DNA from: Natronosporangium hydrolyticum
GTDB lineage: Bacteria > Actinomycetota > Actinomycetes > Mycobacteriales > Micromonosporaceae
Reading direction: 5' to 3'
Length of the DNA: 64,000 nt
NCBI RefSeq assembly: GCF_016925615.1
Contig: NZ_CP070499.1
Span: forward strand, 2,418,001-2,482,000
A model generated the notes under the pieces. That model saw only the letters and a program-made list of their open reading frames with translations. It ran no database searches and had not been told where the DNA came from. Shown here in pieces: positions 54,354 to 64,000 of this stretch. The first letter of the stretch is position 1. Every line of letters begins with the position of its first letter. Both the position numbers and the translations under genes were made by a program.

Positions 54354-55856
54354 ATGGCTGACCAGAGCGCAACTGTCCGCACCACCGCCGGCCGGGTGCG
54401 TGGCCGTCGCGAGGGCGAGCTGGCGGTCTTTCGTGGCATCCCGTTCGCAGCGCCACCGGTCGGCTCCGCCAGGTTCGCCGCGCCGCAGCCGGTGGACCGA
54501 TGGGACGGGGTGCGGGAGGCGGTCGCGTTCGGTCCGGCTCCGCAACAGGGCACCCTGTCCGGGGCGACCCCGCCGGAGTCGGCCGCCGACGACTGGTTGA
54601 CGGTCAACGTGTGGACGCCGGAGCCGGACCCGGCGGCCCGCCGGCCGGTGATGGTGTGGATCTACGGCGGCGCCTACGCGATGGGCAGCTCCAGCTTCCC
54701 CGATTATGACGCTGCCCAGCTCGTCGGCACCGGTGACCTGGTGGTGGTAACCCTCAACTACCGGGTAGGCGTCGAGGGTTTCGCCCAGCTCGCCGGGGCA
54801 CCGGCCAACCGTAGCCTGCTCGACCAGGTCGCCGCCCTGGAATGGGTGCGCGACAACGTCACCGCGTTCGGCGGTGACCCAGCGCAGGTCACCATCTTCG
54901 GTGAGTCCGCCGGCGCCGGCTCGGTCGCCGCGCTGCTGTCGATGCCGCGAGCCGACGGCCTGTTCCAACGGGCGATCGCGCAGAGCGTGCCGGGGACCTA
55001 CCTCTCGGCTGAGCTGGCCGCCGATATCGCCGCCGAGATCGCCGGCGAGCTGGAGCTACCGGCGACCGCGGCGGAGCTGTCGGCTGTGGAGCCACGCCGG
55101 CTGGCCGCCGCCGGGGATCGGGTCGCCACCAAAATGCGCCTGTACGAGCAGCGGTGGGGTCCGGTGGCGCATACGTTGACCCCGTACTCGCCGGTGGTCG
55201 ACGGCGAGGTGCTACCTCGCACGCCCTGGCAGGCGCTGGCCGCCGGCGCCGCGCGGGGCGTGGAGCTGATCGTCGGCCACACCCGCGACGAGTGCCGGCT
55301 GTTCCACTACTTCACCGGGCTGACCGGGCGGGTCACCGATGAGCAGGCCACCGCCGCGTTGCGGGCGCTGGCCCCCGGGCCGGAGGGGGAGCGGGCCTAC
55401 CGCGCGGCGTTCGCTGGCGCCACGGCCGAGCAACTCTTCGACCTGGTCCATTCGGACTGGTTGTTCCGGATGCCCTCGCTGCACCTGGCCGACGCGCAGG
55501 TGGCCGGCGGCGGTCGGGCACACCTCTACGAGCTCACCTGGCGCGCGCCGGGGCAGCCGGAGGTAGGCGCCTGCCACGCGCTGGATGTCCCGCTCACCTT
55601 CGGCGTCTTCGCCTCCGACCTCGCCCGGACGCTGTTGGGAGCCGAGCCACCGCCCGCGGCGGAGGCGCTGTCGAACCGGGTCCGCGCCGCCTGGACCGAC
55701 TTCGCCCGCACCGGGGACCCGGGTTGGCCTGGGTACGACCCGCAGCGGCGGCTCACCCACTTGCTCGATGCCGAGCCCGCGGTCGTGCCGTACCCGGAGG
55801 AGGCTTCTCGCCAGATTTGGCGGGACCACACCTTCGCGGCGCTGCCGTTGCTGTGA
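54354..55856 (+). CDS. Type B carboxylesterase
   Basis: A 500-residue alpha/beta-hydrolase. Nucleophile Ser in FGESAGAGS, oxyanion YGGAY, acid in HTRDECRLF and catalytic His in ACHALDVP. Opens with the typical GRVRGRREGELAVFRGIPFA segment. No signal peptide, so cytoplasmic. Para-nitrobenzyl-esterase-like enzymes of this family split short-chain esters. It is followed by a convergent gene whose stop lies 21 bases away. Confidence 0.92.
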   Translation: MADQSATVRTTAGRVRGRREGELAVFRGIPFAAPPVGSARFAAPQPVDRWDGVREAVAFGPAPQQGTLSGATPPESAADDWLTVNVWTPEPDPAARRPVMVWIYGGAYAMGSSSFPDYDAAQLVGTGDLVVVTLNYRVGVEGFAQLAGAPANRSLLDQVAALEWVRDNVTAFGGDPAQVTIFGESAGAGSVAALLSMPRADGLFQRAIAQSVPGTYLSAELAADIAAEIAGELELPATAAELSAVEPRRLAAAGDRVATKMRLYEQRWGPVAHTLTPYSPVVDGEVLPRTPWQALAAGAARGVELIVGHTRDECRLFHYFTGLTGRVTDEQATAALRALAPGPEGERAYRAAFAGATAEQLFDLVHSDWLFRMPSLHLADAQVAGGGRAHLYELTWRAPGQPEVGACHALDVPLTFGVFASDLARTLLGAEPPPAAEALSNRVRAAWTDFARTGDPGWPGYDPQRRLTHLLDAEPAVVPYPEEASRQIWRDHTFAALPLL

Positions 55857-55877: not shown

Positions 55878-58112
55878 TCACCAGATGGTGACATCCACCC
55901 GCTCGTTGATTACTGGACCAGTGGCGTCGGCGATCGCTCGTACCCGCTCGCGCGAGAGCCTGTCTGTCACCTCCCCGAACCGGCTGTACCCGCCGTTGAG
56001 ATGGGGTGCCGCCGCCAGGGTGATGAAGAACTGCGATCCGGCGCTGTTTGGTCCGGTGTTGGCCATTGCAACCAGGTACGGCCGGTCGAAGACCGATGTG
56101 GAGTCGAACTCGTCGGGTATCCGGAACCCGGGACCGCCCTCCCCGGTCTCGCTGCGGTCGCCGCCCTGGATGAGAAAGCCGGGGATTCGGCGGTGGAAGG
56201 TGGTGTGGTCGTAGAACCCACCTACTCCTGTCTGTCGGGTGATGGGATCCTGCCAAGCCAGGGTGCCGCGGGCGAGCCCAACGAAGGCGTCGACGGTGTG
56301 GGGTGCCGACGTAGGCCACAGCTCGATCGTGATCGGGCCGACTGTGGTGTAGAGCACCGCGACCCCGCGGCAGCCCTGCCCGCCGTGCAGCGGCGGTGGT
56401 GGCCGGCGCCGGCTGACCCCACGCCAGGGTTGTGGCGCGTTGGGCTCGTCGCCCACCTCGGCGCTGTATACCTCCGGTGCCAACGCACTGCCACACCCTA
56501 GGCTGCCGATCGATGAGGACACCGGTGCGGCGCTCGACCGCGCGAGGATCGGCGTTGGGCTGTCCACCAAAGCTTCGGCTTCGGCCCAAAGCCACTGCGG
56601 GTCGTACCCGGCGCGGTGCCGGGCGCGGTGCCGGTGCCACAGTCGGCGAACCTCCACGGATGCCCGGGCGGTCAACGCGAGAAGATCGCCGGCCGCCTGG
56701 GCATCGAGCAATTCGCGGAGACCTTCAGTGGCGAAGTACTTGTCGAACAGCGAGCCGTTGTTGTGCTCCAGCGAGAAGCATTGGTCAACGAAGATAGCTG
56801 GGGGTATCTCAAGCTCGAGGTAGCGGCGCAGCGTTGCGGCGACGGGCCCCCACGCCTCCCCGCCATATTCCAACCCCGGTCCGTTGAAGGTCTCGGCGGC
56901 GAGGGTCAGCGCCCGCAACTGTCCCAGCTCCCGCCGGGTGCGCCACCAGGCCACTCGGCTGTCGCCAGCGGTGACCCGCTCGATGAACGACCCGACCGGC
57001 TCGGGTAGTCGATGCCGGCGGGCCCGCTCGAAGTGGCCGAGTTCGCCACCGATAGTTAGATCGATCTGGCGGGCGAAATAGTCGGCCAGGCCAGGCACCC
57101 ACTGGGCGAAACGCCGCTGAGCCTCGTCGCAGCCGGCTGCGCTCAGCCACTCCAGCACGTAGAAATCGGCAGCGAGCGAGGTGGCATCGACATCCTCCAC
57201 GTACCAGCGCGGATGCCGCCCGCCTAGCTCGTTCGCGAGGTCCGTGAGGCACTCTTCCCGGGCGACCAGGCCCGCGAGGTAACGTCCCCAGTGCCGATCA
57301 ATGACTGCGGCGAGTCTGGGGTAGCGCCAGATCGCCCCGAGCACGTCAACGCATGGGCGGTGGTCCGGTTCGACGCTCCGGATCAGATGCGCCGATAGTT
57401 TCTCGATCATGATCTTGGTAACGACGGCGCGCAATCGCCGATGATGGCGGCCTTGTCCGGGCATCCGCTGGCCCAACTCGGCCAACAGGTTGTCCTTCCC
57501 TGGAGATTCCTTGAGGAGCGTCCAGCAGAAAAGGGCCAGAACTGCGTCCGCCAGGGTGGCCCCGGTAAACCGGCGGCAGTCGGCATAGCACGCGGCGATC
57601 CGACCTTCCACAGTGAGGAAACCTACTCCCGGGAAGTGCGGAGCCAGCGGCACCAGGAACAGCTGCATGGTCAGGGGACCGGTTGCCAGACCGAGCGCGG
57701 CCCGGAGCGGTTCGCCGAACCGATCCAGCGGCAGCAGCCGTCGCAAGTCAGCCTCGCCGGTCGTCCGGACGCCGTCGAGACCAGCGAGAACGGGCTCCAG
57801 CGAAGGAGCCGCCGCTACCATCGCCGCAGCGATCCGGTCGCTGCCGGATCGTAGCTCGGTAAGACCGACCGCATCCACCAGGGCGGCGGGGCTGGTTGCG
57901 TGAGTAATCCCCATCGGTAGATCGGTCAGTCCGGCGCGTCCCCAGTCGCGGAGGCCGTCCACGAACTGCGCCACCTCGGGCACCACCGGACACGGTAGGA
58001 AGACCGACTCATGCGCGAACCGGCCCATCAGCTCCCGTTGTACCGCTAGGAAGAGGTCCAGCACGCTGCTGCGGTGGTAGCTAACCGCCAACGTGGTTTT
58101 GCTTGTCTCCAT
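55878..58112 (-). CDS. Unknown large domain fused to a cyclophilin (peptidyl-prolyl isomerase)
   Basis: A 744-residue protein. Residues 1 to about 530 form an all-helical, unrecognised domain that is rich in Arg/Trp and contains a conserved-looking FSLEHNNGSLFDK. Residues about 586-744 are a complete cyclophilin-type isomerase: FHRRIPGFLIQGGD and SAGSQFFITL. The link (about 530-585) is Pro/Arg-rich and low in structure. It may be a true fusion or a relic joining of two genes; the continuous frame favours expression. One base separates it from the radical SAM remnant upstream. In a RiPP context a proline isomerase could help fold the peptide; this is inference. Confidence 0.72.
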   Translation of the reverse strand: METSKTTLAVSYHRSSVLDLFLAVQRELMGRFAHESVFLPCPVVPEVAQFVDGLRDWGRAGLTDLPMGITHATSPAALVDAVGLTELRSGSDRIAAAMVAAAPSLEPVLAGLDGVRTTGEADLRRLLPLDRFGEPLRAALGLATGPLTMQLFLVPLAPHFPGVGFLTVEGRIAACYADCRRFTGATLADAVLALFCWTLLKESPGKDNLLAELGQRMPGQGRHHRRLRAVVTKIMIEKLSAHLIRSVEPDHRPCVDVLGAIWRYPRLAAVIDRHWGRYLAGLVAREECLTDLANELGGRHPRWYVEDVDATSLAADFYVLEWLSAAGCDEAQRRFAQWVPGLADYFARQIDLTIGGELGHFERARRHRLPEPVGSFIERVTAGDSRVAWWRTRRELGQLRALTLAAETFNGPGLEYGGEAWGPVAATLRRYLELEIPPAIFVDQCFSLEHNNGSLFDKYFATEGLRELLDAQAAGDLLALTARASVEVRRLWHRHRARHRAGYDPQWLWAEAEALVDSPTPILARSSAAPVSSSIGSLGCGSALAPEVYSAEVGDEPNAPQPWRGVSRRRPPPPLHGGQGCRGVAVLYTTVGPITIELWPTSAPHTVDAFVGLARGTLAWQDPITRQTGVGGFYDHTTFHRRIPGFLIQGGDRSETGEGGPGFRIPDEFDSTSVFDRPYLVAMANTGPNSAGSQFFITLAAAPHLNGGYSRFGEVTDRLSRERVRAIADATGPVINERVDVTIW

Positions 58113-58113
58113 G

Positions 58114-58905
58114 TCACCAACCCGGGTTCTCCGGCAGCGCGAGTCCTAGATATTGCTCATCTTCGGAGGCCATCACGCCCGCGCGGCAGCATGCCTCGAG
58201 CAGCCCTCGTACCTGTTTGGCCGTGACTTGGTACCCGAGTGACGCGAGCTCTTCACGGATGCGTTCAGGCGAACGCGAGGTGTAGTCACAAGCCTGATAG
58301 GCCTCCGCGCGCCATCCCGTCAACATGGTTTGCTGCGGCAGCTCGCTGCGCCGATCGATGATGCGTAGGGTCTCTGGCAGCCGTTGATAGGTCAAGCTCG
58401 GACGCCGTTCGCCTGCCCAGCACCGGCGCCATTGCTCGATCGCCACGTCCAGAGCCATTCTGGCTCCGGCGGTGGCGATGTGGTCGGCCTCGTACTCAAA
58501 CGAGTAGGCGATCTTGTCGTGTTGGAGGCTGTGCGGGTAGATGTGCCGGTAGCTGCTCTGAGGCCGGACCCCATGGATCGGGAAGGTGTTGTCGGTAAAG
58601 TATGGACTGAAGCGCTCGAGCCAGAACCGTTCTCCGCCTGCGGGCGGCTCCAGGTGATGCAGCAGCGGCACCAGCGCTGCCTGCTCGTGGTAATCCGCGT
58701 CGGTCTCACCTGGGAACCCGCTTAGAATGTTCCACTCCACCACGAGGCCAAAGTATCTAGCCCACTTCAACAGCCGTAGGTTGATGAGTTTGGATGACCC
58801 CTTCCGCATAAGCTGCAATACATGGGTGCTCAGGCTCTCGATACCGGGCTGGATCCAATTGATGCCCGCGCGAGCGAGCAGTCGTAGATGCTCAGGTCTG
58901 AGCCC
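58114..58905 (-). pseudogene. RiPP-type radical SAM enzyme, C-terminal remnant
   Basis: About 263 residues match the C-terminal half of the rSAM_ocin_1 type, a B12-binding radical SAM family that modifies ribosomal peptides: a WIQPGIESLST strand, RKGSSKLINLRLLKWARYFG, NILSGFPGE, and RFSPYFTDN. The N-terminal B12 domain and the CxxxCxxC cluster are missing. Its upstream end at 58905 joins directly to a methyltransferase fragment in another frame. Either deletion scar or incompletely sequenced; not functional as drawn. Confidence 0.65.
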
Positions 58906-59153
58906 ACATCTAGGACCCGGCCGTGAGCATGACCCAGCGCCCACCGGACGGGCGCAGAGAACGACTCCGAGCTGCCGAAGTAGCGGATCGCGTCGGTTGC
59001 CGAGATGAAGCCGTCGTCTCGCTCGACGATCTCGTTGGCGATCCCCGGCTTCTCACCACTGCGCAGCACCGCCAGGAGGGCCTCGCCGAACGCGTCGCCG
59101 ACCTTCGGGCCTGACATCCCGTCCACAGTTGGCGAATCGGAAGCGGCAGCCAC
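58906..59153 (-). pseudogene. Methyltransferase N-terminal remnant
   Basis: About 82 residues with the opening of a class I SAM methyltransferase: DAIRYFGSSESFSAPVRWAL and the glycine-rich SAM strand GRVLDVG, where the match stops. The rest of the enzyme is missing and the radical SAM remnant begins. GTG 59153 or ATG 59117 could start it. It follows the small peptide gene by 9 bases, as in a RiPP operon. Confidence 0.55.
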
Positions 59154-59162
59154 GGCGGGGCC

Positions 59163-59375
59163 TCAGAGCCCGGCTGCGCTCGCTGGTGGGTCTGCCCGGT
59201 GGGCGAGTTGGTGCTCGATGTTTCGGTGTCTGTCAGCATGAACGCCGAGCAGATAGATCCGGTCGTCCAATCCGGCGACTTCGTCCGGGGTCAGCGGCGA
59301 GAACTCCAGCTCTTCTAGATCGTCCGCGACATCTTCGGCTACGCCGGCGCGGTCAGCGGTGTGCTCGTTGATCAT
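59163..59375 (-). CDS. Candidate RiPP precursor peptide
   Basis: A 70-residue peptide, ATG 59375 with GGGGAG 5 bases upstream. The first 40 residues are strongly acidic with a predicted amphipathic helix (EDVADDLEELEF), leader-like; the end is His/Arg-rich then Ala/Pro-rich (IEHQLAHRADPP). It has no Cys. It is directly upstream of the methyltransferase/radical SAM remnants and divergent from an exporter and protease. This layout suggests a precursor, but the family is not recognised. Confidence 0.45.
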   Translation of the reverse strand: MINEHTADRAGVAEDVADDLEELEFSPLTPDEVAGLDDRIYLLGVHADRHRNIEHQLAHRADPPASAAGL

Positions 59376-59559
59376 GTCGACTCCCCGTCCCGGCAGTGGT
59401 CTGCTACTTGTTACCCATGGTGCCCAGCCACCTCGTTACTGTCAAGATGTTCGATGTGAGCCAGTTGCGGAGTTAGCGATGGCGATGTAGAAATCAGTGG
59501 TCGGCCGCTAGGCGCCGGGGCCGTTACCGCTTGCTGGAGAGGGGCCTGACAACCGTCCC

Positions 59560-60531
59560 ATGAGTTCCTTCGCGATTGAGACCGTGCAGCTTGACCGGGA
59601 GTACCGCACGAGCACGGGGACGATCCGCCGTCGGCGACTGGTGGTGCCGGCGCTCAGCGGCATCTCGCTGGCAGTCCCGCCACGAGAGATCTTCGGGTTG
59701 GTCGGGCCAAATGGGGCCGGCAAGACCACGCTCATCAAGGTCCTCACGACGCTGCTCCTGCCAACATCGGGCCGCGCTTCGGTGCTAGGCCATGATGTGG
59801 CGAGCGAGGCTCGAAGCATTCGACGGAAGGTCAACTTTGTCTTCGGGGGCGAACGCGGACTGTACTGGCGGCTCTCGGCCGAGGACAACCTGCGCTACTT
59901 CGCCGACCTCTACCGGGTGCCGGCGCGCGAGGGCCGCCCACGTGCACAGGAGCTCCTGGAGCTGGTCGGCCTCTCCGATCGGCGCCACGAGCGGGTGGAG
60001 GGCTTTTCGAAGGGGATGAAACAGCGGCTCCATCTGGCGAAGTCGCTGATCAACAGGCCGCAAGTGCTCTTTCTGGACGAGCCGAGCATAGGCCTGGATC
60101 CGGTGGCTGCTCGCCAACTCCGAAGCCTGATCGAACGGGTCCGTCGGGAACACGGGACGACAATCCTGCTGACCTCGCACTACATGTGGGAGATGGAGAC
60201 GCTCTCTGATCGGATCGCGGTGATCATCGATGGTACGATCCGCCACCTCGACTCGCCCCAGGCCCTCCGGACCGCGGCGGTCGGCAGCCACGTCGTCGAG
60301 CTGGTCCTCGCCGATGCCGCCGACGAGGGCGTCGTAAGTGGGGCTGCTCGGGAGTTCGGCCTGGCAGTGGCGGCCAGCGCTGACGGCCGGCGAGTCATCC
60401 GGGTCCACACCTCCCGGCCAGCGCATCTGGTGGCCGCCGTGGTTAGCCAGTGCGACCTGGGGATAGCTGGTCACAGCATTCGCGACTCGCAGTTGGAGGA
60501 TGCCTACGTCCTTATGGTCGAGGGGAAGTAA
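59560..60531 (+). CDS. ABC-2 exporter ATPase
   Basis: A 323-residue ATPase with Walker A GPNGAGKTT, signature FSKGMKQRL (SKG variant), and Walker B VLFLDEPSIGLDP. ATG 59560. The C-terminal domain resembles natural-product exporters. Heads an ATPase-permease-permease operon divergent from the peptide gene. Confidence 0.9.
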   Translation: MSSFAIETVQLDREYRTSTGTIRRRRLVVPALSGISLAVPPREIFGLVGPNGAGKTTLIKVLTTLLLPTSGRASVLGHDVASEARSIRRKVNFVFGGERGLYWRLSAEDNLRYFADLYRVPAREGRPRAQELLELVGLSDRRHERVEGFSKGMKQRLHLAKSLINRPQVLFLDEPSIGLDPVAARQLRSLIERVRREHGTTILLTSHYMWEMETLSDRIAVIIDGTIRHLDSPQALRTAAVGSHVVELVLADAADEGVVSGAAREFGLAVAASADGRRVIRVHTSRPAHLVAAVVSQCDLGIAGHSIRDSQLEDAYVLMVEGK

Positions 60532-60532
60532 C

Positions 60533-61303
60533 GTGCCCCACCAGGCCGTGGTCGCTTCGATGCGAGTCCACCTGGTCAACACGCTAGCTCGGCCGATCTT
60601 CCAGGTCATGCTCCTGATCCAGCCGATTACGATGGTACTGCTGACTTACTACGTCTACGGCCGGGTCGACGGAGCCGGGGCGTTCTATGTCGTTCTGGGC
60701 AGCGGCATGGCGGGCATGTGGGTGGCGACCGCGTTCTCCTCGGCCGGCGATCTTGGACGCGAACGCAGGTACGGCACCATTCTGCCGGTCCTACTCGCTG
60801 ACGCTTCGCTCTGGCTGGTCTCTGCTGGCCGCGCGATGGGTGCGTTAGTGCTGTCGTTGATCCCCATCGTGATCTCCAGCGTCGCCGCGGTGCTGCTGTT
60901 TGGTGTCCCGCTGCCCGGTGACCTGTCAGTACCCTGGGTCCTGGTCGGCATCGCCGTTTATGGGCTCGCCTGCCACTCATTCGGCCTCCTGCTGGGTACG
61001 CTGTTCTTGCTGTCGCGACGCACGACGGTGCTACAGAACTTCCTCGAGTGGCCGTTGTTGGTCGCCTCCGGCGTGTTGTTTCCGGTCACCGCCCTGCCGG
61101 CCGGAGCCCAAGGGGCCACCGCAGTGGTCCCGATGCGGTGGGCCGCGCAGGCCACCGAGCAGGCGTTCACCACCGGGACGCTCGACCTTCGGGCGCTTGG
61201 CCTGGCATTGTCGTCGGCGGGGATCGCCCTGGCCGCAGCGGTAGTGCTGTTCCGAGTGATCGAACGCAGGGTACGGGTCACCGCGAGCTTGGAGCTGGCC
61301 TAG
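60533..61303 (+). CDS. ABC-2 exporter permease (first)
   Basis: A 256-residue permease with six membrane helices. GTG 60533 follows GAGGGGA by 7 bases and lies one base after the ATPase stop; ATG 60560 is a less likely start. Its FLEWPLLVASGVLFPVTALP loop fits ABC-2 transporters. Confidence 0.87.
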   Translation: MPHQAVVASMRVHLVNTLARPIFQVMLLIQPITMVLLTYYVYGRVDGAGAFYVVLGSGMAGMWVATAFSSAGDLGRERRYGTILPVLLADASLWLVSAGRAMGALVLSLIPIVISSVAAVLLFGVPLPGDLSVPWVLVGIAVYGLACHSFGLLLGTLFLLSRRTTVLQNFLEWPLLVASGVLFPVTALPAGAQGATAVVPMRWAAQATEQAFTTGTLDLRALGLALSSAGIALAAAVVLFRVIERRVRVTASLELA

Positions 61304-62080
61304 ATGTTCGCCGTCCGGTTGCTCCGTCAGGTCAGCTACTCCTACCGCGGACTCTTCGGATGGCTCCGGCCGCTGGACTACGCAATCATGATGTTCATCG
61401 AGCCGGCGGTCCAGATCATCTTTTTTGGACTGTTGGGCCAGTTCGGGCCAGAGGGCACCGAGTACTACATCATCGGCAACGCGGTACGACTGATGGCCAC
61501 GAGCGCTCTATTCGGTGCGACGTCCGTCATCATCAATGAGCGCGGTCAGGGAACTCTCACCGCGCTGATCGCCGCGCCGACGCCGGTGGCGGAGACCTTC
61601 TATGCCCGTGCTCTGTTGCAAGGGATCTCAGGGGTCCTGACCGGGGTCTTCTGTATCAGCCTCGGGGTGGTGTTGTTCGGCCTCGACATTAGCAGCACCT
61701 CGATCGTGTGGTTACTGATCGGGCTGCTGGTGACCGCGATCTCCCTGTCCGGCCTTGGCTTGCTACTGGCGAACCTCAGTCTGCTCGGCACCGACGCCAA
61801 CCTGCTGCTCAACGTCGTGTTCTATGGCTTGATCGTTTTCAGCGGCGCGAACATTCCCCTCGCGGAGCTGCCCGGTCCGGTGGCTACAGCGGCGCAGGCA
61901 CTGCCCATGACCCACGGCTTGCTCGCGGTCCGGCAGGTGATCGACGGTGACCTCAGCGGTGTGCCGTATCTGCTCACGATGGAGTTGCTCATCGGGCTGG
62001 CATATGCGGCTGCCGCAATCGTGCTCCTGCGGTACGCCGAGCGGCGAGCTCGCCGTACCGGCAAACTGGAGTTGGTGTGA
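61304..62080 (+). CDS. ABC-2 exporter permease (second)
   Basis: A 258-residue permease starting right after the first (TAG then ATG). Similar to its partner, with the region FYGLIVFSGANIPLAELPGP before the last helices. The two probably form a heterodimeric channel for a peptide or small product. Confidence 0.87.
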   Translation: MFAVRLLRQVSYSYRGLFGWLRPLDYAIMMFIEPAVQIIFFGLLGQFGPEGTEYYIIGNAVRLMATSALFGATSVIINERGQGTLTALIAAPTPVAETFYARALLQGISGVLTGVFCISLGVVLFGLDISSTSIVWLLIGLLVTAISLSGLGLLLANLSLLGTDANLLLNVVFYGLIVFSGANIPLAELPGPVATAAQALPMTHGLLAVRQVIDGDLSGVPYLLTMELLIGLAYAAAAIVLLRYAERRARRTGKLELV

Positions 62081-62168
62081 GGCCTGGAACCGGCCCGCGG
62101 GCCCGCCACGGCGGGGCAACACATCGACTGGTATTGCGATCCGAGAGCGGTTCAGGCAGCATGACCTT

Positions 62169-64000
62169 GTGTCTGGTGACGTACTTTCGCACCCTGAGGG
62201 ACCCCCCGTGTCCCGCTGGGAGAGGCGCTTTCGGGCACCCCGGATAGGCATGCCGGTCAGCGCTCTTGACGCCCCTGACCGACACGTGTGCATCGCTACG
62301 GCGCACGGCACCATCGAAGTGCACAGTTGGGACAGCAGTTCAAGGGTCCTGACCCAAGCTACCTCCCGACAGGAAGGCACCCACCGCGCCGCGATTGAGC
62401 CGGCCGGTGAGTGGATTTGGTGGTTCGACGACCGCGACGGCGACGAATGCGGAGTCTGGCGCCGGCAGCGGTTCGGAGCTGGTCCGGGTGAACAGACCGT
62501 GGACGCGACCGGGTTGGCGCCGTCCCAGCCGGCCGGTCTTGCGCTTGGCCGACGCAACGTGGCGGTCGTGGGCGTCGTCGACCGGCGGGACGAGTACCGG
62601 GTTCTCCGGCTCGGCCTCGACGGCAGCGCCGACCCGCTGCTGCTCTATCAGCACCGGCAGGCGGTGTCAGTTGGTCCACTCAACGCCGACAGCACGCAGC
62701 TGTCCTTAATCCATAGCGAACACGGCGACTCCCGGCATCCGGCAGTGCGCGTTTTGGACACGTCCGGCAACGCCGTCGTCGGCGACCTTTGGGATGGACC
62801 CGGTCTCGGGGTACGTCCGATCGGTTTCGCGCCGGCGTTCGGCGACGACCGGCTGCTCGTGCGGCACGACCGGCACGGACGACCCGGCCTCCTGCTCTGG
62901 CGGGTCGGCACTGGTGAGCAGTCCGAGCTCGATCTCGCGGTGCCGGGAGAGGTGGCTGCGGCATCCTGGTACCAGGATGGTTGCGCAGTGCTGGTGGCAG
63001 TTTCCCACCACGGCCGCACCCGCCTGCACCGGGTTGACTTGGCCGTCGGCGGCATGGCAGTCAGCGCCGTCCAACCGGTCGGGCCCACCACCGGCACCGT
63101 CTCGGCCCTCACCACCACTCCTGGCGGGGACGCATGGTTTCTGTGGTCATCCGCCGCCGACCCGCCGACCATCCGCAACCTTGTTGGCGAACCGGTGGTG
63201 GCGCCGCCTGGGCCCGCTGCACCACCCAGCGTCCCGGTGACGGATCTATGGGTGGACGGTCCGGGCGGGCCCGTCCACGCGTTGTTGCGCCTGCCGCCGA
63301 GCCTCGGCAGGCAGCGAACCGACCGTTACTTGCCGCTCGTCATCGACTGTCACGGCGGCCCCGCCGCCCACGACAGTGACCTCTTTCGTGCCGGACCGGC
63401 GGCGTGGGTAGATCACGGCTTCGCCGTCGTCCAGATCAACTATCGCGGTTCCACCGGGTACGGGACTGGGTGGCGCGACGCCATCGCCGAGCGGGTCGGC
63501 CACACCGAACTGGCGGACGTCGTAGCCGTTCGCGATCACCTGGTGAGGGTGGGCATCGCTGATCCGCGACGAGTCGTATTGTCCGGGCACTCGTGGGGCG
63601 GCTACCTCACCTTACTCGGGCTCGGGCGCTATCCCGATCGATGGTCGGTGGGGCTGGCCACCTCGCCGATCGCCGACTACCTGGTCGCCTACGCCGACGA
63701 GAGCGAAGACTTGAAGGCATTCGACCGCTCGCTCTTCGGTGGCTCCCCGGAGCAGGTCGGGGAGAAGTATCGCGACGCCAGCCCGCTGACGTATGTTCCT
63801 GAGATCCAGGTGCCGCTGTGGATAGCTGCGGGTCGGGCTGATCCACGTTGTCCATGGCGACAAATACTAAGCTATGTCGACGCTCTGAAGCGATATCGGA
63901 TCACTCATGAGCTGTACCACTACGATGCCGGACATGGATCGCTGGCGGACGCGGAACGGATTCGGCAAATGGGCATGAAGCTCGACTTCGTCGCGCGCTA
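62169..64000 (+). CDS. Prolyl-oligopeptidase-family (S9) serine protease, 3' end cut
   Basis: At least 610 residues and still open at the window edge. An N-terminal beta-propeller (residues to about 350) precedes an alpha/beta-hydrolase with Ser475 in GHSWGG, Asp in AAGRADPR and His in DAGHGS, so the catalytic triad is complete. GTG 62169 or GTG 62208 is the start. No signal peptide. Follows the exporter by 89 bases. S9 proteases cut short peptides after Pro or Ala and some process RiPP precursors. Confidence 0.88.
   Translation, partial: MSGDVLSHPEGPPVSRWERRFRAPRIGMPVSALDAPDRHVCIATAHGTIEVHSWDSSSRVLTQATSRQEGTHRAAIEPAGEWIWWFDDRDGDECGVWRRQRFGAGPGEQTVDATGLAPSQPAGLALGRRNVAVVGVVDRRDEYRVLRLGLDGSADPLLLYQHRQAVSVGPLNADSTQLSLIHSEHGDSRHPAVRVLDTSGNAVVGDLWDGPGLGVRPIGFAPAFGDDRLLVRHDRHGRPGLLLWRVGTGEQSELDLAVPGEVAAASWYQDGCAVLVAVSHHGRTRLHRVDLAVGGMAVSAVQPVGPTTGTVSALTTTPGGDAWFLWSSAADPPTIRNLVGEPVVAPPGPAAPPSVPVTDLWVDGPGGPVHALLRLPPSLGRQRTDRYLPLVIDCHGGPAAHDSDLFRAGPAAWVDHGFAVVQINYRGSTGYGTGWRDAIAERVGHTELADVVAVRDHLVRVGIADPRRVVLSGHSWGGYLTLLGLGRYPDRWSVGLATSPIADYLVAYADESEDLKAFDRSLFGGSPEQVGEKYRDASPLTYVPEIQVPLWIAAGRADPRCPWRQILSYVDALKRYRITHELYHYDAGHGSLADAERIRQMGMKLDFVAR

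Follow-up and report, generated by a model that had tools for sequence, protein, structure and literature searches.

A probably decayed RiPP-like gene cluster in Natronosporangium hydrolyticum and its intact relatives in other actinomycetes

The end of a 64,000-nucleotide window of the Natronosporangium hydrolyticum genome (contig NZ_CP070499.1, positions 2,418,001 to 2,482,000; coordinates below count from the first letter of the window) holds what is probably a decayed member of a family of gene clusters that resemble those for ribosomally synthesized and post-translationally modified peptides (RiPPs), and the class is apparently undescribed. The minus strand carries a 70-residue peptide open reading frame (ORF), the start of a methyltransferase, the end of a radical S-adenosylmethionine (SAM) enzyme and a 744-residue protein. 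The plus strand carries an ABC-2 ATPase, two ABC-2 permeases and an S9 peptidase. The locus is present as a single copy in a one-contig genome of 5.7 Mb. A sequence-only reading of this DNA had described a small acidic peptide gene, a methyltransferase start joined in another frame to the end of a RiPP-type radical SAM enzyme, a large protein of unknown family fused to a cyclophilin, and a divergent exporter and protease. All of these features were located in the window, and the description as a whole is confirmed by the window ORFs, by profile matches and by homologues in relatives.

55878-58112, minus strand: 744-residue protein, N-terminal domain of about 500 residues plus cyclophilin (Pfam, relatives, predicted model)
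56607-58097, minus strand: N-terminal domain of that protein, residues 6-502, without known family (alignment of relatives, predicted model)
55881-56375, minus strand: cyclophilin domain, residues 580-744 (Pfam PF00160, structural match)
58114-58911 (upper end approximate), minus strand: C-terminal fragment of a TIGR03975 B12 radical SAM C-methyltransferase, comprising its last 264 residues
58900-58915, minus strand: deletion junction, where methyltransferase VLDVG runs out of frame into radical SAM ...LRPEHLRLLARAGI
58899-59153, minus strand: N-terminal fragment of a class I SAM methyltransferase, roughly its first third (comparison with Streptomyces radicis); start codon uncertain, 59108-59153
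59163-59375, minus strand: precursor peptide gene, 70 residues (homologues in relatives)
59560-60531, plus strand: ABC-2 exporter ATPase, DrrA-like (profile match; 75% identical in S. radicis)
60500-61303, plus strand: ABC-2 permease 1 (Pfam, relatives)
61304-62080, plus strand: ABC-2 permease 2 (Pfam, relatives)
62127-64000, plus strand: S9 prolyl-oligopeptidase-family peptidase, start approximate; its stop lies 28 bases past the window end

The precursor peptide consists of a leader motif, DDLEELEFSPLTPDE, a core region, DRIYLLGVHADRHR, and a C-terminal tail of about 18 residues, NIEHQLAHRADPPASAAGL. Its ORF can be taken as a real gene because homologues are found in every relative neighbourhood examined, 13 of 13. 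The S. radicis peptide matches with E=4e-16 and 79% identity over 38 residues, and the window peptide follows it up to HADRHR; the tail beyond is found in no relative and may mark a lost stop or a deletion endpoint. The precursors of the relatives are 41-56 residues long, an approximate range given that start codons are partly uncertain, with a motif of about DLxELEF...DRxYLxGV. In 12 aligned precursors D19, E22, L23, F25, D38, R39, Y41, L42 and G44 (window numbering) are invariant and the cores have no conserved proline. The cores, for example YLVGVHADRHRVL, YLFGVHADRSRIQ, YLFGVHVDAVRG, YLLGVRPEFVNR and YLLGVRREYYNVR, vary in length, with about 8-14 residues after DR, and are mostly free of Ser, Thr and Cys. 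The most divergent precursor, that of genome G1080, has EIEF for ELEF, NR for DR and the core YLLGVHADGPRGV. A DNA pattern search for a leader motif gave zero matches.

Between the peptide gene and the 744-residue protein, two enzyme fragments meet. The methyltransferase fragment aligns at 61% identity with an intact, 264-residue class I methyltransferase of S. radicis over residues 22-90 of the latter, and the homology ends at GRVLDVG. Three-frame translation of 58860-58960, compared with S. radicis, gives ...GHAHGRVLDVG in the methyltransferase frame, and the radical SAM frame resumes with ...GLRPEHLRLLARAGI. The radical SAM fragment covers positions 350-606 of the 606 in the TIGR03975 profile (E=1e-69) and is 60% identical to residues 415-678 of the intact, 679-residue enzyme of genome G005. 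At 235.4 bits it falls below the family cut-off of 281.85 and is not full-length, whereas the intact S. radicis enzyme, at 643 bits, is a full family member. The fragment contains neither the B12 domain nor the C-x7-C-x2-C cluster motif; the latter is present in all 10 intact radical SAM relatives checked. The end of the radical SAM gene overlaps the gene for the 744-residue protein, as though the two were translationally coupled.

The C-terminal domain of that protein combines a cyclophilin fold with conserved catalytic motifs. Pfam family Pro_isomerase (PF00160) matches residues 588-730 with E=8e-33, the motifs FHRR, GFLIQGGD and GSQFFIT are retained, and the predicted model matches PpiA of M. 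tuberculosis (1w74) with Z=17.6 over 151 aligned residues and a root-mean-square deviation of 3.2. A fold search with the model of the whole protein returned matches filled by cyclophilins. The front domain, which is 45-58% identical in relatives, is well predicted as a mostly helical structure. No credible Pfam match to it was found in any of 11 members, and a profile search against PDB sequences returned nothing credible, the best match having only E=0.42.

This front domain also served to find relatives. A profile scan with the window domain alone found none, and a two-sequence alignment of the window and G005 domains found ten: S. radicis, S. sp. KL109B, S. coffeae, S. sp. NP-1717, S. sp. 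ODS25, S. sp. NRRL B-3428, Nonomuraea thailandensis, Umezawaea endophytica, Micromonospora echinofusca and M. okii. G005, G990, G1029, G1180 and G1080 came from genome searches, in which matches had frequencies of 4/344 genomes in the genus of G465 (g140, by inference Streptomyces; one noise match left out) and 3/160 in Micromonospora (g4). Intact clusters occur in at least a dozen other actinomycetes, with representatives in Streptomyces, Nonomuraea, Umezawaea and Micromonospora. Two further matches to the front domain were rejected: that in G062 (E=2e-4) is an alanyl-tRNA synthetase ORF and thus noise, and that in G996 (E=3.5e-4) has two internal stops and was treated as noise.

Gene content was compared in 13 neighbourhoods, those of the ten named relatives plus G005, G990 and G1080. 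In each, a short, acidic and conserved precursor with a leader motif is clustered with modifying enzymes, as in a RiPP cluster. The precursor lies in the same cluster as the gene for the domain-cyclophilin protein in 13/13, and an enzyme that would use phosphoenolpyruvate (PEP) is likewise present in all. A nucleotidyltransferase and an ABC exporter are each found in 12/13, a metallo-beta-lactamase-fold gene in 6/13, and an S9 peptidase and a methyltransferase in one each, the latter only in S. radicis, the closest relative. The ODS25 contig begins within the cluster, and gene absences there mean little. The sequence-only reading had made conservation of the peptide beside radical SAM enzymes its own test; peptide and intact radical SAM enzyme occur together in 11/13. 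The Nonomuraea version lacks both the radical SAM enzyme, over about 10 kb on each side, and the methyltransferase. Two relatives carry additional genes: in U. endophytica the domain-cyclophilin gene is directly followed by an 82-residue acyl-carrier-protein-like ORF (L069, 12203-12451) that was not seen in the other relatives, and in G1080, the most divergent cluster, a 330-residue protein without known function is encoded directly upstream of the radical SAM gene (L088:3942-4934).

The PEP enzyme of the relatives matches the pyruvate, phosphate dikinase (PPDK) profile TIGR01828 only from position 237 to 864, with 492 bits against a cut-off of 843, and is not a PPDK member. It retains the phospho-His and PEP/pyruvate-site motifs GGxTSHAAVV, RLLDPP, NPMLGVRG, NDL and CGE. 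It lacks the front of the ATP-grasp domain, and in alignment the GGKGANL and SVRSGA region of the PPDK of N. hydrolyticum itself has no counterpart. The nucleotidyltransferase is 350 residues long and shows a GS...SDxD motif together with a third conserved Asp. In its predicted model (pLDDT 85) the front part matches ANT(4') nucleotidyltransferases with Z of 11-12 over about 240 aligned residues, and residues 272-362 match the RiPP recognition elements (RREs) of TruD, TbtB, TbiB1, a lasso B1 protein and PbtF with Z of 6.5-7.7 over 76-86 aligned residues. The Pfam PqqD match is weak and below cut-off. The enzyme is thus predicted to carry a C-terminal RRE, which supplies by predicted fold a second mark of a RiPP cluster. 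RREs are common, not universal, in such clusters.

Compared with these relatives, the window copy appears by its gene content to have lost four modifying enzymes: the PEP enzyme and the RRE-nucleotidyltransferase are missing altogether, and of the methyltransferase and the radical SAM enzyme only truncated forms are left. In the N. hydrolyticum genome no cluster-type PEP enzyme was found, the best match being a housekeeping-type PPDK of 40% identity, and no nucleotidyltransferase homologue was found. The losses look recent, since the radical SAM fragment is evolving at most slightly faster than expected: between the window and S. radicis, dN is 0.32 and dS 1.28, and relative-rate and dN/dS tests give a decay signal that is weak at most. 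In its interpretation the sequence-only reading was right about an eroded RiPP-like cluster, a deletion and intact relatives, and needs revision in the number of lost genes and in the definition of the class. It had two central enzymes lost in a deletion, and both are indeed cut, with two further genes missing. It had defined the class by a B12 radical SAM enzyme, a methyltransferase and an isomerase; the domain-cyclophilin protein is constant, the methyltransferase is present in only one of the 13 neighbourhoods, and Nonomuraea has no radical SAM enzyme. The presence, conservation and domain make-up of the genes compared point instead to a constant set of precursor, PEP enzyme, RRE-nucleotidyltransferase, domain-cyclophilin protein and exporter.

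Beyond the exporter, the S9 peptidase of the window is 59% identical to an S9 protein within the Nonomuraea cluster. Next after it, just outside the window, is a metallo-beta-lactamase-fold gene that is 56% identical to a gene beside the Nonomuraea cluster. On the other side a carboxylesterase-like gene (54354-55856, plus strand) converges on the cluster. Its third-position GC is 0.89, compared with 0.71-0.84 in the cluster genes, suggesting that the cluster may have been acquired.

TIGR03975-type enzymes also occur at other loci. The N. hydrolyticum genome has a second RiPP-like locus (contig about 2844950-2851210; L047:1954-8213) with a short acidic peptide, three tandem proteins resembling 2-oxoglutarate (2OG)-dependent or prolyl hydroxylases, a pentapeptide-repeat protein, a TIGR03975-type radical SAM gene split between frames (L047 6295-7011 and 6978-8213) and then transposase genes. 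The radical SAM relatives of G571 and G781, of 44% identity and below, were set aside, as they lie in other kinds of cluster. In G781 (L042:9599-15936) what looks like another unusual peptide cluster joins the enzyme with two 2OG-type hydroxylase-like proteins, a tetrapyrrole-methylase-like protein and a small protein with long polyproline-glycine C-terminal repeats. In G571 (L039:8325-15543) the cluster is of lanthipeptide type, and the B12 radical SAM enzyme shares it with an aldo-keto reductase, a LanKC-like protein and a 99-residue peptide rich in Cys and Thr.

Several components have known counterparts, in that RiPPs with a kinase and a nucleotidyltransferase, a partner protein annotated as a peptidyl-prolyl isomerase (PPIase), and TIGR03975 enzymes are each known separately. 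The lasso peptide pseudomycoidin, made with the kinase PsmK and the nucleotidyltransferase PsmN (PMC9266682), likewise pairs a phosphate-adding enzyme with a nucleotidyltransferase on a ribosomal peptide. In contrast to that system, PEP is the probable phosphate donor here, an RRE is predicted within the nucleotidyltransferase itself, and the cores lack the C-terminal Ser at which PsmK and PsmN act; the scan of cluster genes turned up no lasso cyclase. MirC of the rosaritide pathway in Micromonospora rosaria (PMC13097080) is a PPIase-annotated protein with an extra N-terminal domain, strict co-occurrence with a RiPP enzyme and the role of a required partner. Unlike the protein described here, in which a cyclophilin follows a domain of about 500 residues, MirC is of the SurA/PpiC type (TIGR04500), has a front domain of 90 residues and works with a graspetide synthetase. 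No TIGR04500 match was found in the window or in the relatives' cluster proteins scanned. Pfam and NCBIfam scans of cluster genes, which did not take in all other neighbouring genes, gave no ATP-grasp ligase, the mark of graspetides. The PEP enzyme shares the phospho-His mobile domain, the PEP/pyruvate domain and conserved active-site motifs with the superfamily of PPDK and enzyme I of the phosphotransferase system. It differs in having no front part to its ATP-grasp domain and in being encoded within a peptide cluster. Among TIGR03975 RiPP maturation enzymes, of which the window retains only the C-terminal positions, the partner genes are unlike those in the papers found. RRE fusions to glycosyltransferases and glutathione S-transferases were noted with RRE-Finder, where nucleotidyltransferases are unmentioned (PMC7470986), and daptide clusters may hold nucleotidyltransferases as secondary enzymes (PMC10036551). 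No class joining a RiPP to a cyclophilin and a radical SAM enzyme, or to PPDK or PEP-utilising enzymes, was found in a literature search made without most subscription papers, which leaves novelty unproven.

The explanation that fits best, and a probable one, is that the locus is a member of this RiPP-like family, apparently undescribed as a class, that has decayed. A bolder reading, with somewhat less than an even chance, makes the intact relatives a new class of RiPP: the nucleotidyltransferase, guided by its RRE, and a phosphotransferase driven by PEP, a PPDK minus its ATP site, would place a phosphate- or nucleotide-based group on the short YLxGV peptide, with tyrosine as a possible site. 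The domain-cyclophilin protein would be an essential partner, and the window strain would have had its biosynthetic core deleted while the export and cleavage genes survived. From the genes of the intact clusters, the product would likely be a phosphorylated or nucleotidylated, often C-methylated peptide. The individual chemical steps can be assigned only tentatively, their order, the acceptor and the product being deduced from the enzymes encoded. The RRE would capture the DLxELEF leader motif, the PEP enzyme would take phosphate from PEP onto its histidine and hand it on, either to the peptide or to some building block, and the nucleotidyltransferase would attach a nucleotidyl group, for which the invariant Tyr of YLxGV may be the site. 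C-methylation of the core would fall to the radical SAM enzyme, with the domain-cyclophilin protein as obligatory partner or chaperone, and the product would be cleaved and exported. The isomerase itself probably does not act on the core, because no proline is conserved there. In the window strain no mature product would be expected, because two modifying enzymes are lost, a single deletion has cut the other two and the peptide tail is extended. The exporter, peptidase and domain-cyclophilin genes are still open, which may mean that the loss is recent, or that the strain uses export and cleavage as protection from a product made by its neighbours.

Several observations weigh against the reading of the locus as a decayed member of this family. 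The missing nucleotidyltransferase leaves a clean TGA/ATG overlap with no visible scar, and the radical SAM fragment, free of internal stops, has diverged only a little more quickly than its relatives, such that any decay would have to be recent. At about 7, the RRE Z-scores are modest, though the matches there are mostly RREs. The acceptor of the phosphate or nucleotide is a guess, given how rare Ser, Thr and Cys are in the cores, and members of the family are known from their genes alone.

The openness of the remaining genes outside the junction would also suit a reduced but working pathway, in which the peptide, domain-cyclophilin protein, exporter and peptidase act alone or with borrowed modifying enzymes. 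The apparent translational coupling at the end of the radical SAM fragment, the variable gene content, with the Nonomuraea version as a precedent, and the second TIGR03975-type enzyme of the genome would fit as well. Yet that second gene itself runs in two separate frames and is accompanied by a peptide of its own, the peptide tail at the window locus is altered, and the PEP enzyme and RRE-nucleotidyltransferase, held by nearly all relatives, have no cluster-type copy to borrow from; such a pathway is quite unlikely. Slightly better placed, while still improbable, is a non-classical RiPP system in which the small protein is a carrier for small-molecule assembly or an enzyme partner and the peptide is not the product. 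Carrier-peptide pathways are known (PMC9303977), the cores are very short and variable in length, and a PEP enzyme and a nucleotidyltransferase are unusual for RiPPs; against this, the same cluster combines an RRE fold with a RiPP-family B12 radical SAM enzyme, and DRxYLxGV is near-invariant at the C-terminus, where cores lie. A sequencing or assembly error could be suspected from the frameshift in the second radical SAM locus, possibly a base error, but it would have to account for three separate gaps (PEP enzyme, methyltransferase/radical SAM and nucleotidyltransferase) in a one-contig genome in which the missing genes are found nowhere else, and it is very improbable.

If the proposed class is real, it would be one with PEP as the phosphate source and a leader-binding nucleotidyltransferase, undescribed in the literature searched. 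It would also provide a second, independent prolyl-isomerase-annotated partner protein in RiPP maturation, with an N-terminal domain that has no Pfam family. Intact clusters in which this could be tested are available in S. radicis, the intact relative nearest to the window copy, and in several other Streptomyces, and the window copy would then be an example of how such a cluster falls apart.

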